Below, in pieces: positions 650 through 14,779 of a stretch of 15,682 nt of DNA; the first letter of the stretch is position 1; every line of letters starts with the position of its first letter. Under the pieces are notes generated by a model. The model worked only from the letters and a program-made list of their open reading frames with translations. It did no database searches and had not been told where the DNA came from. The translations under genes and the position numbers were made by a program. Source of the stretch: an uncultured Muribaculaceae bacterium (GTDB taxonomy: Bacteria; Bacteroidota; Bacteroidia; Bacteroidales; Muribaculaceae); the NCBI GenBank assembly GCA_947178235.1, contig CAMWXQ010000009.1, positions 1 through 15,682 of the forward strand, in the 5' to 3' direction.

Positions 650-705
650 TAGTGCGATAATGCATACTTGTGAATGAAAAAATCGGCAATTCCGTGAAGC
701 TCAGC

Positions 706-723
706 CAAATTTTGTCAAATTTG
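706..723. promoter_or_regulatory. Possible operator: CAAATTT-N4-AAATTTG dyad
   Basis: Two 7-bp arms are perfect inverted repeats around a 4-bp centre. The dyad lies just upstream of the -33 element of the rightward adhesin promoter, roughly -65 to -48 from its likely transcription start, and between the two divergent promoters. The position suits an activator or a shared regulator. The site is AT-rich, so chance is not excluded, and no regulator gene is in the window. Confidence 0.3.
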
Positions 724-735
724 CCGCCTCAACAT

Positions 736-766
736 TTTGCCAACTCGCTAATTTTCCTTAACTTTG
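736..766 (+). promoter_or_regulatory. Bacteroidota-type promoter for the adhesin gene
   Basis: TTTG at 736-739 and TAACTTTG at 759-766 match the -33 and -7 elements recognised by the Bacteroidota primary sigma factor, with a 19-base spacer. Transcription should begin near 770-773, leaving a leader of about 40 AT-rich bases before the ATG at 811. This placement also shows that an in-frame upstream ATG at 670 lies ahead of the promoter and is not the start. Confidence 0.75.
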
Positions 767-810
767 TATATTACACGAAATCACCATCTATCCATTTAAT
801 CAATTACCTA

Positions 811-3800
811 ATGAAGAAATTGTTTCTTTATGCCTTGACTCTGCTCTTGGCTCCAAGTGCGATGGCTCAGGGACTCGTCCAGGTTCCCGACCAGGGCGCT
901 CCGGCCAGAGAGGTACTGGGCGTAGTTCCGCAGCGCGGACCCGCTGTCCCCGAAGTACAGCTTGGGGGCGCACTGCTCCCGGCCCTCACAGCCAACTCCC
1001 CGTTTGTAAATCTCTCCTCGGAGATCTCCTCGGGCCTCGCTCTCGGCAAACAGAGCTACCAGGACGGCCCGTTGTATGCCGGCCCCTCCCGCATGGCATA
1101 TGCCGGTGTCTACACCATAGGCCTCACCATTCAGTCGCCCGGATTCATCACCACAATTCCGCTGACAGGCTCGGCTCCTTCGTCGTATGAGAGGGTCACG
1201 AACCTCACAGGCCTCCTCTCCAAGGGCGCAATGAACGACGCCGAGAACTGGATTATGTGCTACAACCCCGGCGGCACCTCCCTCATGCTCTTCAAGTACA
1301 ACACCGAGAGCTGGACAACCACGGGACCTACCTATCCTCCTTACGGCCCCAATAACTCCTACGAGGTTTTTGACTCGTCCTTTGACCCCATCGACGGGAT
1401 GGTCTACGGCATGACAGCCAGACTGACCTACGGAGGCTCGGCCGGCGCCAGCGTCACACCCGAATGGGCAAAGATCAACCCCGCCAACGGCGTGCGCGAT
1501 GTAATCGGCAATGTCACAGTCGCATGGCGCGGCATCATGTGTAACGCCGAAGGTCAGTTCTACGGCATCGACGCCGAAGGTGTACTCTACACCATCGACA
1601 AGGCTACGGGTACATCTACCCGCGTAGGCGAGACCGGATGCGCAAGCTACTACCGCACCACCGGTACATTCGACACCCGCAGCGGCGAGATCGTCTACGC
1701 GACCTGCAACGACGACGGCTCCTCGCTCTATCGCATCGACCCGGCCACCGCAGCCGCCACCAAGGTATATGACTTCCCCCAGCGCATACAGCTCGTGAAC
1801 CTCTACATTGCGCCTCCCGCAGCCGACGACAATGCGCCCGACGTACCCACCGATCTCACCGCTGATTTCGAACAGGGTTCGCTCACCGGCGTGGTCAAGT
1901 TCAAGGCTCCGACAAAGACCTATGGAGGCGAGGAGTCGCACGGCGACCTCTTCTACTACATCACTGCCAACGGCACTCCCGTGGCCGACGGACGTACCGT
2001 CTACGGCGCTGAGGTCGAGCAGAACATCACTCTGGCTCAGAACGACAACTATATCTTCGAGGTATATTGCACCAACTCCGTCGGCCCGGGCCCGAAGGCC
2101 AAGACCGACAAACTCTTCATCGGCAACGATGTCCCCACCCTCGGCTGGACATTCAATATCGCTTACGCCAACGGTGCCTTCAACATCACCTGGGGCGAGG
2201 CTAACAGCACCGGTCTGAACGGCGGCCCGATCGACACCTCGAAGGTCCGCTACCTGCTCACCCGCTATCCCGACGGCCACCAGACCCTCACCGCCCCCGG
2301 CGCCACATCGCTCACCGAGGCCTATCCCGAACCCGAGAAGGGCGGCGTGCACTACTACACGCTCCAGGCCGTCTACAACGACATCAAGAGCAACGACATC
2401 CGCACCTCCAACTCGCTGCTCATCGGTACGATCTATCCCGCATACAAGAACACCTTCACCACCAACACCGACATGATCGGCTTCACCTCCGAAGCCTTCT
2501 CCGGCCCGAATGACTGGGGTGTGTTCAGCGGTGTCACCCGCCTCGGCTACCGCTCGGGCGAGGGTCATGACAACTACCTCTACACTCCGAAACTCTACCT
2601 GTATGCCAACCGCTACTACCGCTTCGGCATCAAGGCAAGCATGTGGATGAACACGGCGTACCCCGACAAGTTCGATGTTGTCTATGGTCACGAGCCCACC
2701 CGCGACGCGATGACCTACACCATCCTCAAGGACTGCCAGGTGACGACCTCCTCCCAGTCCAACCCCAACGTGTTCGAGACCATCTTCGTTCCCGAACAGG
2801 ACGGCTACTATTACATAGGTCTGCACGTGACCGGTCCGGCCAACAATGTGGCCTTCTGCTTTGACGACCTGGACATCTCGGCTCCTATCCTCGGCGGCGC
2901 TCCCGAACCCGTGGGCAATCTTAAAGCCACCCCCGCTCCCGACGGATCATGCTCGGCCAAGGTTTCGTTCACCGCTCCCAAGAAGAATCTGCTCGGCCAG
3001 AGCCTCTCTCAGCTGACCCGCGTGGAGATCCGCAAGGGTGACGAGGTCGTGAGCGACCTGCCCATGACAGCCGAGTCGCTGACCTGGACCGACAAGGACG
3101 CTGTGCCCGGCATCAACACCTATACCGTCACTCCCTACAACAACGACGGTGCGGGCACCCCGCTCTCGACCTCGTGCTTCGTAGGCTATGACATCCCGAC
3201 CAACGTCGCCGCCATCGAAATCACCAAGGGTGAGGCTGACGGCGAGGTAATCGTGAACTGGACACCCGTGACCCAGGACATCCACGGACTCACAGTGCCC
3301 TACGTCGCCTATGCTCTCGTACGCTCCGCCAATGGCGAGGAGACCGTGCTCGGCCAGGCTCTCACCGAGACAACCTACACCGACCGCGTGACCACAGGGC
3401 CTCAGGCAATGGTCTACTACGGCGTGAAGGCCATCACCAACGAGGGCATCAGTACCGGCTGGGCCATCTCTGACCAGCTCCTCGTAGGCACACCCTACAC
3501 CACTCCCTATGTCGAGTCCATCGCCGGCGGCAATCTCTCCTCGTTCATCGCCACCCGCCTGCTCACTCAGAACGGCTCGTGGGAGATTGACGACGACAAG
3601 TCCTTCAACGACATCCGCTCGGCTGACCTCGACAACGGCTTCATCAGCTTCTACTCGCCCTACATCGAGGAATCGGGCGAGCTCTACTCCGGCCTCATCC
3701 GCCTCCCCGAGCAGATGAAGAACCCCACCCTCTCCTTCTACACCTACCACTTCAAGGATGGCGAGAACACTCTCGAACCGATGATCAAGGGCGTGAACGA

Positions 3801-5346
3801 CGCCTCATGGCGCGTGCTCGAAAAGATCACGCTCGGCGGCGACACCAACGGATGGCGCCTCCATACATATGACGTCACCCCCTGGCTCGGCAAGGTCGTG
3901 CAGATCGGCTTCGGCGCAACCACCCACACCCATGTGCTCGTGGGCATCGACAAGATCATGATCGCCTCCCAGCTCGACCACAACATCGACAACGTACAGA
4001 TCACCGGCCCCTCCTCGGCTCTCATCGGATCTGAACTCGCCATCAATGTGGCCTACGATGTGAATGCACGCGAGAATGCCGAGAACTTCTCCGTGGTGCT
4101 TCTCCGCAACGGCGAGGTCATCTCCACCCAGGAATTCGACAACGCCCTGGCCGGCAGCCACGGCGTAGCCACCTTCACTGACGTGTTCCCCCAGGTCGAG
4201 ACCCAGTACGTCACCTACAATGCCCGCGTTGATTACGCTGCCGACGAAAAGGCCGCCGACAACAATGCGCTGAACACCGTCACCGTCAAGGCTGTCCTTC
4301 CCGAGTGGCCCGTGGCCGATAATCTCGTGGCCGAGCGCGAAGGCAAGGATGTGAAGCTCACCTGGGCCGCTCCCGACATGGACACCCGCCCCTGGAAGAC
4401 CTATACCGAGAGCTTCGAAGGTGTCACCACAGGTCAGCCCGACTTCCCCGGATGGACATTCGTGGATGCTGACAAGGCTCCCGTAGGTACCGCCGGCGCT
4501 CCCGAAGGCACATTCCCCGGCATCACTGCCGGCGTGTCCACCGCGGGCTTCATCGGTGTCAATGCTGCTGACAACGAATCCATGTTCGGCCAAGCCCACA
4601 CCGGAACCTCATTCATGGGCGCGCTCTACTGCTACGACCGCTCGGTGAACGACGACTGGCTGATCTCGCCCGAGCTGAAAGGCGAGGCGCAGACCGTCAG
4701 CGTCTGGGCCCGCTCGATGACCAACTTCTATGGTGGCGACCGCTGCGAGTTCCTCTACTCGACCTCGGGCACCAACCTCAATGACTTCGTCTCGATGGGC
4801 GGCTACCAGGGTATCCCTGCGGCCTGGGTAGAATTCAAGCTTCCCCTCCCTGTTGGTGCCAAGTATGTGGCTATCCGTTGTATCTCGATCTATCAGCTCA
4901 TGTTCTGTGTGGACGATGTGACCTTCATCCCCGCCGATGCCGAGCATATCGATATGCAGCACAAGGGCTACAACATCTGGCGTGACGGCGTCCGCATCAA
5001 TACGGCACCCGTGACCGCAGCCGAGTATGTAGACAAGGAGGCTGATGAGAACGCTCACACCTACCACGTCACCGCTCTCTACGACCTCGGTGAATCCACC
5101 GTATCCAACCCCGCCTCTGTCTCCATGTACAGCGGCCTGGAGTCGGCTCTCGGTGGTGACGTCACCATCTCCGCACAGGACCGTCACATCATCGTGAAGG
5201 GCATCGAACCGACCGAGAGCGTGATCATCACGACTGTCGACGGCATGAATGTCTGGACTGGTCGCGGCGAAGTATCCGTACCCATGAACTGTGGCTTCTA
5301 CATCGTACGTGCAGGCACCCGCACCGCCAAGATAATCGTACGCTGA
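811..5346 (+). CDS. Large secreted multidomain adhesin-like protein, FN3 repeats and T9SS-type tail, 1511 aa
   Basis: The start is placed at 811 because it gives a clear signal peptide, MKKLFLYALTLLLAPSAMA, cut before Gln, and because the promoter at 736-766 excludes the in-frame ATG at 670. Approximate order of parts: residues 60-330, a region with propeller-like repeats (YGIDAEGVLYTIDKATG type); 340-530, two FN3-like domains (APDVPTDLTA, DVPTLGW); 540-690, a jelly-roll of the cleaved-adhesin/choice-of-anchor type ending in FCFDDLDIS; 697-890, two more FN3-like domains; 896-1055, a second jelly-roll; 1056-1165, an Ig/CARDB-like domain; 1195-1380, a third and clearest cleaved-adhesin-like domain with DDWLISPEL and FCVDDVTF; then a short FN3 and a final tail (1444-1511) containing GFYIVRAG and ending KIIVR. 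That tail fits the T9SS type A sorting domain. No catalytic motif is visible. Binding to glycan or host protein is inferred from the domain types. Transcription ends at the terminator just downstream. Confidence 0.9.
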   Translation: MKKLFLYALTLLLAPSAMAQGLVQVPDQGAPAREVLGVVPQRGPAVPEVQLGGALLPALTANSPFVNLSSEISSGLALGKQSYQDGPLYAGPSRMAYAGVYTIGLTIQSPGFITTIPLTGSAPSSYERVTNLTGLLSKGAMNDAENWIMCYNPGGTSLMLFKYNTESWTTTGPTYPPYGPNNSYEVFDSSFDPIDGMVYGMTARLTYGGSAGASVTPEWAKINPANGVRDVIGNVTVAWRGIMCNAEGQFYGIDAEGVLYTIDKATGTSTRVGETGCASYYRTTGTFDTRSGEIVYATCNDDGSSLYRIDPATAAATKVYDFPQRIQLVNLYIAPPAADDNAPDVPTDLTADFEQGSLTGVVKFKAPTKTYGGEESHGDLFYYITANGTPVADGRTVYGAEVEQNITLAQNDNYIFEVYCTNSVGPGPKAKTDKLFIGNDVPTLGWTFNIAYANGAFNITWGEANSTGLNGGPIDTSKVRYLLTRYPDGHQTLTAPGATSLTEAYPEPEKGGVHYYTLQAVYNDIKSNDIRTSNSLLIGTIYPAYKNTFTTNTDMIGFTSEAFSGPNDWGVFSGVTRLGYRSGEGHDNYLYTPKLYLYANRYYRFGIKASMWMNTAYPDKFDVVYGHEPTRDAMTYTILKDCQVTTSSQSNPNVFETIFVPEQDGYYYIGLHVTGPANNVAFCFDDLDISAPILGGAPEPVGNLKATPAPDGSCSAKVSFTAPKKNLLGQSLSQLTRVEIRKGDEVVSDLPMTAESLTWTDKDAVPGINTYTVTPYNNDGAGTPLSTSCFVGYDIPTNVAAIEITKGEADGEVIVNWTPVTQDIHGLTVPYVAYALVRSANGEETVLGQALTETTYTDRVTTGPQAMVYYGVKAITNEGISTGWAISDQLLVGTPYTTPYVESIAGGNLSSFIATRLLTQNGSWEIDDDKSFNDIRSADLDNGFISFYSPYIEESGELYSGLIRLPEQMKNPTLSFYTYHFKDGENTLEPMIKGVNDASWRVLEKITLGGDTNGWRLHTYDVTPWLGKVVQIGFGATTHTHVLVGIDKIMIASQLDHNIDNVQITGPSSALIGSELAINVAYDVNARENAENFSVVLLRNGEVISTQEFDNALAGSHGVATFTDVFPQVETQYVTYNARVDYAADEKAADNNALNTVTVKAVLPEWPVADNLVAEREGKDVKLTWAAPDMDTRPWKTYTESFEGVTTGQPDFPGWTFVDADKAPVGTAGAPEGTFPGITAGVSTAGFIGVNAADNESMFGQAHTGTSFMGALYCYDRSVNDDWLISPELKGEAQTVSVWARSMTNFYGGDRCEFLYSTSGTNLNDFVSMGGYQGIPAAWVEFKLPLPVGAKYVAIRCISIYQLMFCVDDVTFIPADAEHIDMQHKGYNIWRDGVRINTAPVTAAEYVDKEADENAHTYHVTALYDLGESTVSNPASVSMYSGLESALGGDVTISAQDRHIIVKGIEPTESVIITTVDGMNVWTGRGEVSVPMNCGFYIVRAGTRTAKIIVR

Positions 5347-5374: not shown

Positions 5375-5410
5375 ATGGGGTTGTGTCAGAACGGCACAAC
5401 CCCATTTTTT
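5375..5410 (+). terminator. Intrinsic terminator after the adhesin gene
   Basis: A perfect hairpin has stem GGGGTTGTG (5377-5385) and CACAACCCC (5395-5403), extended by two flanking T-A/A-T pairs, with a 9-base loop. A run of six T (5405-5410) follows directly. It starts about 30 bases after the adhesin stop codon and should isolate that gene from the repeat element and glycosyltransferase beyond. Confidence 0.9.
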
Positions 5411-5437: not shown

Positions 5438-5661
5438 ATAAAGCCTCCGAAGGAGGCGTGGTTACGGTAGGCCCCCGCCTTGGCGGGGGTTGAAAAGACC
5501 CCACCAAATGATTGCGGCCCCCGAAGGGGGTCGTGGAACACCACAATTAGCATCCGTGACATGCCACGACCCCCTTCGGGGGCCGGGTCGTGTGTTTGGA
5601 TCATCTATACCCCCGCCAAGGCGGGGGCCTACCTTAGCCCCGCCTCCTTCGGAGGCTTTAT
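5438..5661. repeat. Composite inverted repeat built from nested palindromes
   Basis: Two arms of about 95 bp face each other across a 27-bp centre (5537-5563). Three blocks pair perfectly between the arms: 5438-5458 with 5641-5661 (21 bp), 5466-5489 with 5610-5633 (24 bp), and 5516-5536 with 5564-5584 (21 bp). Between the two outer blocks only three bases differ. Each block also contains its own small hairpin: GCCTCC/GGAGGC with a GAA or TTC loop, CCCCCGCC/GGCGGGGG around TT or AA, and CCCCC/GGGGG with GAA or TTC. A stretch of 25-26 bp inside each arm is unrelated between the arms. Read toward the outside, both arms could encode the similar peptide PAKAGAY...ASFGGF, but the three differences all change amino acids, which argues against coding. 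It resembles REP/BIME-type elements in design. No transposase is present. Confidence 0.85.
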
Positions 5662-5668
5662 TCTACTT

Positions 5669-5703
5669 AATTCATAATTCTTAATTCATAATTCTTAATT
5701 CCC
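5669..5703 (+). repeat. AATTC(A/T)T heptamer array before the glycosyltransferase start
   Basis: Five exact 7-bp steps are present: AATTCAT, AATTCTT, AATTCAT, AATTCTT, AATTCCC. They are followed by AAA and then the GTG start codon. There is no Shine-Dalgarno sequence between array and start and no TAnnTTTG box in the preceding bases, so the array is effectively the whole translation leader visible for this gene. The same heptamer forms the arms of the xylA-xylE hairpin. Confidence 0.8.
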
Positions 5704-5706
5704 AAA

Positions 5707-6438
5707 GTGACCATCTTCACCCCTACCCACGACAGGGCCGAGCATCTGAGAATGCTCTACGAGAGCCTCGCCACACAGACCTGCATGGACTTCGAATGGA
5801 TTGTCGTCGACGGCGGCTCGACCGACTTCACCCCCTCACTGATGCGTCAGCTCATGGCCCAGGACCGCATAGACATCAAATATCTGACCGCCTCAACCCC
5901 TGGTGAGTGTGCCGCACTCGCCGAAGCAGCCCGCACGGCTTCGGGCGAACTCATGTTCTGCGTGCGACCCGGCCAATTCCTCCCCGACGAAGCCGTAGAA
6001 CAGCTGCGGGCCGAGTGGAAGCGCAGCGGCCATCCCGACCGCGGCGGCCTCATCGGCCTCGACCTCAACCTCAGCACCATGGAGCCGAGCGGAAGGCGCG
6101 TCGCCGTCATCCGCACCGACCTCCTGCGTCGCGTCGCACCACTCGAACGATTCGAGGGTGAGCGCGAGCCGGACATGAGCGTGATGGAGATGGTCGCCGC
6201 CGACGGCCACCCCCTCGTGTCCACGGAGATAGCCGTGACCGTCACCGAAGACCGCACGGACGGCTTCGAGACCCATCCCTCGGCATGGAAGCGCTTCAAG
6301 GCCTCCCCACGCACCGCCACCGCCGAAATGCGCATGAAAAAGGGTCTCAAAGACGTGAGTGTCTTCAAGACCCTGTGGTATTCGGTATGTTACGCGCTGA
6401 TGACCGTGTACGTCAGAACCGCCACGAGACGCCGATGA
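5707..6438 (+). CDS. GT2-like glycosyltransferase, probably degenerate, 243 aa
   Basis: The N-terminus (TIFTPTHDRAEHLRMLYESL, then DFEWIVVDGGSTD at residues 28-40) is the nucleotide-sugar binding start of GT-A fold family 2 enzymes common in Bacteroidales. The start is GTG at 5707: an in-frame stop lies 18 bases upstream, and the family normally begins right at this strand. Related proteins usually carry a GGKHxAxN-like segment and then a DSDD-type DxD motif that holds the metal and sugar nucleotide. Here those positions read TPGECAALAEA and CVRPGQFL (residues 85-92), so the DxD is missing. The later family pattern survives (RFEGEREPDMSVMEM, HPSAWKRF), and a hydrophobic stretch closes the protein (TLWYSVCYALMTVYV). 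The fold is likely kept; normal catalysis is doubtful. No promoter is visible close by. The last 26 bases overlap the 3' end of the convergent barrel gene. Confidence 0.8.
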   Translation: MTIFTPTHDRAEHLRMLYESLATQTCMDFEWIVVDGGSTDFTPSLMRQLMAQDRIDIKYLTASTPGECAALAEAARTASGELMFCVRPGQFLPDEAVEQLRAEWKRSGHPDRGGLIGLDLNLSTMEPSGRRVAVIRTDLLRRVAPLERFEGEREPDMSVMEMVAADGHPLVSTEIAVTVTEDRTDGFETHPSAWKRFKASPRTATAEMRMKKGLKDVSVFKTLWYSVCYALMTVYVRTATRRR

Positions 6439-14656: not shown

Positions 14657-14779
14657 AATTAAGAATTATGAATTAAGAATTAAGAATTTGGCTACCTTAT
14701 AAGTCTTATAAATCCTATAAGTCTTATAAATCTTATAGACCAAATCAAATTCTTAATTCTTAATTCATAATTCTTAATT
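14657..14779. repeat. Perfect 34-bp inverted repeat in the xylA-xylE spacer
   Basis: The arm 14657-14690 is the exact reverse complement of 14746-14779, with 55 bp between them. Each arm is made of the heptamers AATTCTT and AATTCAT, about 4.5 units. The right arm ends 5 bases from the xylA stop codon and the left arm ends 21 bases before the xylE start codon, so the dyad fills the spacer and would fold in the xylA-xylE message as a long A-U rich stem. No clean target-site duplication is visible at its edges. Nearly all of the 149-base gap between the genes is this structure. Confidence 0.92.
14696..14740. repeat. 9-bp tandem repeat with TTATAA core, 5 units
   Basis: Five 9-bp steps are present: CTTATAAGT, CTTATAAAT, CCTATAAGT, CTTATAAAT, CTTATAGAC. 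The core TTATAA is self-complementary, the same design as the TAGCTA array at 1-36. The array occupies the loop of the 34-bp inverted repeat. Units differ mainly by single transitions, so it is an old or loosely maintained array. Confidence 0.9.

Follow-up and report, generated by a model that had tools for sequence, protein, structure and literature searches.

How a short intergenic sequence comes to fold back on itself through a series of smaller palindromes, and what might carry it from place to place, are the questions raised by positions 5438-5661 of the window, by which we mean the whole 15,682-nucleotide stretch of DNA analysed here, from an uncultured Muribaculaceae bacterium (GenBank assembly GCA_947178235.1, contig CAMWXQ010000009.1). 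The first-pass annotation described an inverted repeat of about 224 bp made of smaller palindromes, and self-alignment, BLAST and an arm search bear this out. The element, a foldback that we assign to a family termed D and to neither strand, has two inverted arms of 92 nt each (5438-5529 and 5570-5661), which are 78% complementary and lie 40 nt apart, and all six local hairpins could be located. An inner perfect pair between the arms is also present (5515-5536 with 5564-5585), although at 22 nt rather than the 21 nt given before, and alignment of the arms confirms that the outer 52 nt differ at three positions and that the next 25 nt or so are unrelated.

The left arm, read on the forward strand, begins with an outer hairpin of six-base-pair stem and GAA loop (5443-5457), followed by a middle hairpin found by the hairpin scan, CCCCCGCC/GGCGGGGG (5472-5489), which has a REP-like GTAG foot one base to its 5' side (5467-5470), and then by an inner hairpin with a GAA loop and one G-T pair (5516-5532). 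A 27-nt core (5537-5563, no strand assigned) separates the innermost paired blocks; the corresponding position in a related family, C, is taken by a transposase gene. The right arm repeats this order on the reverse strand, with inner (5568-5584, loop GAA), middle (5610-5627, GTAG foot at 5629-5632) and outer (5642-5656, loop GAA) hairpins. The element is intergenic and both flanking ORFs are on the forward strand. The upstream one (670-5346; 1558 aa, start uncertain) ends before the element, has an RGI_lyase domain match near its C terminus that is just over cut-off, and is followed by an intrinsic-terminator-like hairpin on the same strand, outside the element (5375-5405); the downstream ORF (5707-6438) encodes a family 2 glycosyltransferase. 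Units of AATTCTT type border the element, and direct repeats beside it (5671-5698) consist of units similar to those of an AT-rich foldback elsewhere in the window (14657-14779; its AATTAAGAATTATGAATT arms pair perfectly over 34 nt), a kind found again in L015, L022 and L034 of the same genome.

That the inverted repeat is not a product of chance follows from two comparisons. Over 300 bp its self-complementarity score is 118, against a mean of 13.3 (sd 7.8) for 3272 windows drawn from 501 kb of the same genome, where it ranks second highest, and its DNA fold of -100.5 kcal/mol lies far from the mean of 200 shuffles (-41.3, sd 3.9). A single arm plus half of the core folds only moderately better than its shuffles (z -2.7).

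A second copy of family D was found in the same genome by BLAST (C42:384-603), 82% identical over query positions 1-221, so that the single-copy outcome named beforehand as arguing against a dispersed family did not arise, although no other genome was seen to have family D. Arms and spacers both vary between the two copies, and a change of the inner loop from GAA to GACA between them is matched in both arms. No D copy was detected by BLAST in 26 congeners (E <= 0.001), and among 397 genomes of the bacterial family, with at most two candidates per genome among the matches listed, nothing beyond the source genome exceeded a weak match of 47 nt. That match, in G211, falls in a brief GC-rich sequence, and hits of a D-pattern scan in two genome contigs (an alphaproteobacterium and Streptomyces) and one viral contig were judged to be chance. 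A lone GCCTCCTTCGGAGGC hairpin at L005:1501-1516 is identical to the D outer hairpin. Ten genomes in which the downstream gene has a relative were checked for an empty site; only G019 among them matches that gene near full length (46% identity), and no empty site is readable since the upstream sequences of five loci share no context. Target duplications were not seen by eye in 19 pairs of flanks.

Family D has company. In 501 kb of the source genome 27 foldbacks score above 45, of which 15 are GC-rich and at least 150 bp long, and 13 of these 15 fall into four families (A, nine; B, one; C, one; D, two), with typical lengths of about 275 bp for A, 241 for B, 212 for C and 224 for D; the GC-rich foldbacks at L019:7601-7849 and L020:13350-13506 belong to none of the four and were excluded from family counts. 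These foldbacks have a short core between inverted arms, with three or four short hairpins to an arm, and their common arm build consists of an outer hairpin, a middle hairpin of the form CCCC...GGGG and at least one inner hairpin, after which come the core and the inverted arm. Single-arm queries recovered 69 arms of families A-D on 26 contigs in 570 kb, a search space in which 13 contigs were included because searches had matched them. Head-to-head doublets within 130 nt number 21 (A 14, B 3, C 2, D 2), and the 27 other arms include some that are partial or cut by contig ends. Families also stand side by side, as a BIME-like mosaic: A, a piece of B, and D adjoin on C42, A and C occur together on C166, and B and C on C212 and C85. 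The previously suggested likeness to REP/BIME elements, modular and inserted head-to-head, is thus upheld by the second D copy, the sister families, the singles, doublets and mosaics, and the transposase genes that accompany two of the sister families. Other repeat structures were noted in passing. At L036:8848-9208 a family A foldback lies inside a further inverted pair (TGTAGGGACATGCC...), and a similar outer block adjoins an element in L072; AT-rich inverted repeats of short units (GAATTGAGAATT, GAATTTTGAATTT) occur in the source genome at L022:11635-11731, L037:3768-3877 and L046:2456-2541.

Of the 27 genomes of the genus, 13 gave a Y1 (HUH) transposase in a PF01797 search, the source genome having three genes, and it is at these genes that the sister families meet an enzyme. 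Families A and C flank such a gene, and the third gene also lies between inverted arms. The first (C27, L037:8474-8917) is preceded by two complete family A foldbacks and followed, 13 nt past its stop codon, by a right arm of A, while the second (C142, L085:183-632) sits between two family C arms of about 102 nt (arm-arm score 67), whose counterparts in a gene-less family C unit on C20 (L030:1588-1799) are 82-86% identical to them. The third (C140, L084:4099-4542) lies between inverted arms that score 41, the right side being cut by the contig end. These arms look like family B, yet B queries fail to match them and no A-D arm query does, so they were counted as a further arm set; for family B itself no transposase gene was found in this genome.

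To judge from their sequences, the transposases beside the sister families are IS200-like class 1 proteins with the Y---Q--HH signature, which is that of TnpA_Y1 subclass 1.2 as described by Quentin et al. in 2018 (PMC6006769). The signature is invariant in 19 of 19 aligned proteins and is present in the remaining two of 21 genus loci as well; all three proteins of the source genome carry it. The proteins are 142-150 aa long (the start codons of L098 and L100 are uncertain), near the 148 aa or so expected for subclass 1.2, and contain the HUH motif. All five proteins scanned, two of them from relatives, exceed the cut-off of the NCBIfam IS200 model, whereas the same five reach at most 25.4 bits against a cut-off of 80 for REP_Tyr_transpos, and the IS608 transposase comes first among eight relatives of solved structure at E <= 0.001. 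A REP-associated tyrosine transposase proper (class 2 TnpA_REP), which the first-pass annotation had proposed looking for, was therefore not among the three PF01797 matches of this 1.70-Mb assembly of 331 contigs, which is 57.8% complete. As the proteins belong to class 1 by signature, model and structural relatives, the system would be REPtron-like in its working and not a class 2 one.

The association of such genes with arms extends through the genus. Arm-arm scores of at least 35 occur at 18 of the 21 transposase loci tested, which come from 12 genomes and represent 21 of 35 PF01797 rows, the other 14 having been left out of the arm test. For comparison, cross-paired flanks have a 99th percentile of 24 and a maximum of 76, and among ordinary ORFs of the source genome 3/329 reach 35, the highest of which (in L037) has family A elements on either side. 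In L090, L096 and L098 the arm score is raised by simple outer-end repeats; at L096 and L098 the outer arm ends adjoin extended runs of 7-nt units (GATTAAT-like, TTAGTTG). Perfect hairpins on both sides were found at 12 of the 21 genus loci (shuffles 0.8, maximum 5), but at nine at least one flank has no perfect hairpin.

In a sample of the phylum, 175 of 394 genomes hold a Y1 relative, and at the 29 best loci the two measures part company. Arm alignment, from which L131 and L142 were omitted for want of an open match, reaches a score of 25 at only 7 of 27 loci, which counts against the mobile-repeat reading given below, but perfect hairpins stand on either side, at most 250 nt away, at 23 of 28 loci (L142 omitted), where shuffles give a mean of 2.55 and a maximum of 7. 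Ordinary ORFs have hairpins on both sides in 23/220 cases in G018 and G002 and in 40/222 in the source genome. On inspection of seven phylum and four genus loci a several-hairpin arm is visible in L118, L120, L136 and L140, and one is likewise visible at a locus on plasmid CP012861.1 of Persicobacter sp. JZB09. A Bernardetia locus, also from the Bacteroidota, combines a Y---Q--HH protein with weaker inverted repeats, and two cyanobacterial matches have neither the HH motif nor a perfect hairpin within 260 nt on either side. Arm copy numbers were counted in G018, two of its congeners, G607, G704 and the source genome. The family flanking the gene in G018 has 44 matches there, counting both strands, and none in the two congeners; a direct tandem array of its arm units, each of about 100 nt, was noted at G018:C11:842013-842690 (L215). 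For the L140 arm, G607 yields only six matches, three of which fall at the locus of the gene itself, and G704 yields none; the strength of dispersal thus varies between genomes. Foldbacks passing the same filter numbered zero in 200-kb samples both of G018, which has the gene, and of G002, which does not, and this comparison lends no support.

What the arms have in common across families is the form of their hairpins. Loops of the type C-GNA-G or C-TNC-G close 50 of 67 hairpins inside foldbacks and 14 of 953 outside, a count in which the copies are related and are hence not 50 independent cases; the same loops make up 20/194 at 18 transposase loci of relatives, against 3/577 in background stretches. 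GNA-triloop DNA hairpins are known for their high stability. The loops also have a direction: with each arm followed inward to the core, 82 triloops comprise 71 GNA, 4 TNC and 7 others, with GNA in all four triloops of D, which are those of its outer hairpins, and none of the 82 from family B, in which stems are shorter or imperfect. The phylum loci have the same polarity, with 21 GNA on the left and 18 TNC on the right against 6 TNC on the left and 7 GNA on the right.

The first-pass annotation had imagined a switch between the local hairpins and one long fold, and for this question family A is informative. In 28 arms of A the local hairpins are 98.4% paired. Seven pairs have changed on both sides, a number that none of 500 shuffles reaches, the figure being weakened by the relatedness of the sequences, but a second measure of covariation, that of further pair types, is attained by 16 of 500 shuffles. 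Among 579 cells of the stems there are four G-T pairs and one A-C, so that both are rare. Sister arms of one element are no more alike (0.717) than arms in permuted pairs (0.728), which leaves arm-to-arm gene conversion unsupported in this family, and 7 of 14 elements have one version of the long stem in one arm and another in the other, each internally paired. In D the sister arms score 0.834 and same-side arms 0.802, from two copies, too few to weigh. Local hairpins that covary, in sister arms no more alike than other arms, imply that in family A the arm hairpins, and not the arm-to-arm duplex, have been kept; of the proposed switch, it is thus the local hairpins that look like the kept unit in this family, and the long fold there is a consequence of having two head-to-head copies of one module. 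For REPINs, PMC3116915 has already put forward two folds, one a long hairpin and the other a clover form.

Taken together, we consider it rather likely that the element in the window is a REPIN-type non-autonomous mobile repeat, and that family D was spread by an enzyme resembling those of subclass 1.2 through a single-stranded DNA intermediate; from its build it is REPIN-like and was probably moved as single-stranded DNA. The element would comprise two inverted copies of an arm of about 95 nt, with three short hairpins each, around a short core. A transposase would recognise the arm hairpins, mostly through GNA triloops oriented from outer end to core, in single-stranded DNA, and would cut and rejoin them, such that arm-core-arm units might be copied or moved to intergenic sites without target duplication. 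The gene of the enzyme that spread D would lie in the missing part of the genome, or have been lost. We infer this partner because no transposase gene with D arms was found in the assembly and because D alone has a GTAG foot; the best score of D arms against the transposase loci, 19.4, is a marginal similarity, given that 60 shuffles compared with fewer loci reached 16.6.

The foot is one ground for a competing reading, in which D is a canonical REP or REPIN whose class 2 TnpA_REP (RAYT) has its gene in sequence that the assembly lacks, and the likeness of D to the subclass 1.2 families is convergent. GTAG stands one base before the middle hairpin in four of four D arms (and before none of the four outer hairpins), as the definition of REP given in PMC6006769, with GT[AG]G 0-2 nt 5' of the hairpin, would have it, and an assembly so incomplete leaves room for such a gene. 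A GT[AG]G foot precedes one of 204 arm hairpins at subclass 1.2 genes, and the GTAG of D could be chance or point to a class 2 enzyme encoded in the unassembled portion. We nevertheless think the class 2 origin unlikely, since the PF01797 matches of this genome all carry Y---Q--HH and since D shares with its sister families the three-hairpin arm, the CCCC...GGGG middle hairpin and the GNA loops directed from outer end to core.

Two readings that dispense with a transposase are less probable again. A transcribed structured RNA, or a terminator or mRNA-stability device common to several genes, would suit a strongly folding sequence between two ORFs with terminator-like matches at both of its ends and one inside, but it is improbable when a separate terminator-like hairpin already follows the upstream ORF, Rfam gives no match for the element at gathering thresholds, G-T pairs are few in family A stems, and the elements are symmetrical head-to-head and have sister families linked to a transposase. 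An inverted duplication made when replication switched template at palindromes already present, without a dedicated enzyme, would account for arms that are inverted copies, for the loop change matched in both arms of D and for the slightly greater likeness of its sister arms in the two copies; we hold it to be a shade less probable still, as the two D copies stand at unrelated sites, the sister families are dispersed and the sister arms of family A resemble each other no more than permuted pairs do.

Returning to movement by a subclass 1.2-like enzyme, the system is close to several that are already described and identical to none. With REPINs and BIMEs and their RAYT (class 2, REPtron), as these are presented in PMC6006769, PMC3116915 and PMC8266576, it shares palindromic repeats found as inverted doublets and singles, several families per genome and a Y1 gene flanked by repeats; family D is itself repeated, palindromic and arranged in inverted doublets, and the intergenic position was checked for the copy in the window. 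The differences are that the transposase here is of class 1 (IS200-like, Y---Q--HH), that the arms are about 95-115 nt long with three or four hairpins where a REP is one unit of about 20-60 nt, and that the arm hairpins at the genes are marked by GNA triloops, with GT[AG]G feet almost absent. The subclass 1.2 proteins surveyed in PMC6006769 agree with those described here in length, signature, HUH motif and the small number of genes per genome, and Bacteroidetes are named there as a main host group. Table 1 of that paper gives 'no' for the subclass under REP, and its section 18 describes it as generally without typical IS200 end structures, whereas hairpin arms flank the genes considered here, and copies are dispersed in the two genomes tested most, the source genome and G018. 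A literature search, mostly of titles and the beginnings of abstracts, yielded no paper that links subclass 1.2 to repeats, and the link to hairpin arms, in the genus and at the best phylum loci, is the part that seems new.

IS200/IS605 elements and their non-autonomous derivatives likewise have a Y1 HUH transposase and end hairpins, and here too no target duplication was seen; the family C gene between inverted arms resembles an autonomous unit of this kind. Unlike in IS200/IS605, the arms are long inverted repeats of several hairpins and outnumber the genes (69 known arms and three genes in the source genome). TIRYT, as described in PMC3733652, also place a Y1 gene between inverted repeats, which occur in addition as single, dimeric or grouped copies, but their proteins fall into other subclasses in PMC6006769 (mostly 2.1, also 2.2 and 2.5), and their ends are palindromic terminal inverted repeats of consensus GGGG[AT][CG]A[CG] in place of several-hairpin arms.

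These comparisons suggest a wider view, on which we are evenly divided: that subclass 1.2 constitutes a second, phylum-wide REPtron-like system in the Bacteroidota, in which genes between inverted arms of GNA-triloop hairpins spread private foldback families derived from their own ends by loss of the gene, family D of the window being one of them. The repeats described here are candidate substrates for a subclass of HUH endonucleases that has so far been an orphan, and would represent a second route to REP-like repeats, through class 1. Because family C has, within one genome, both an arm-gene-arm unit and gene-less arm-core-arm units, the descent of REPINs from IS200-like ends becomes testable, and the polarity of the GNA loops may offer an easy basis for predicting the bound strand.
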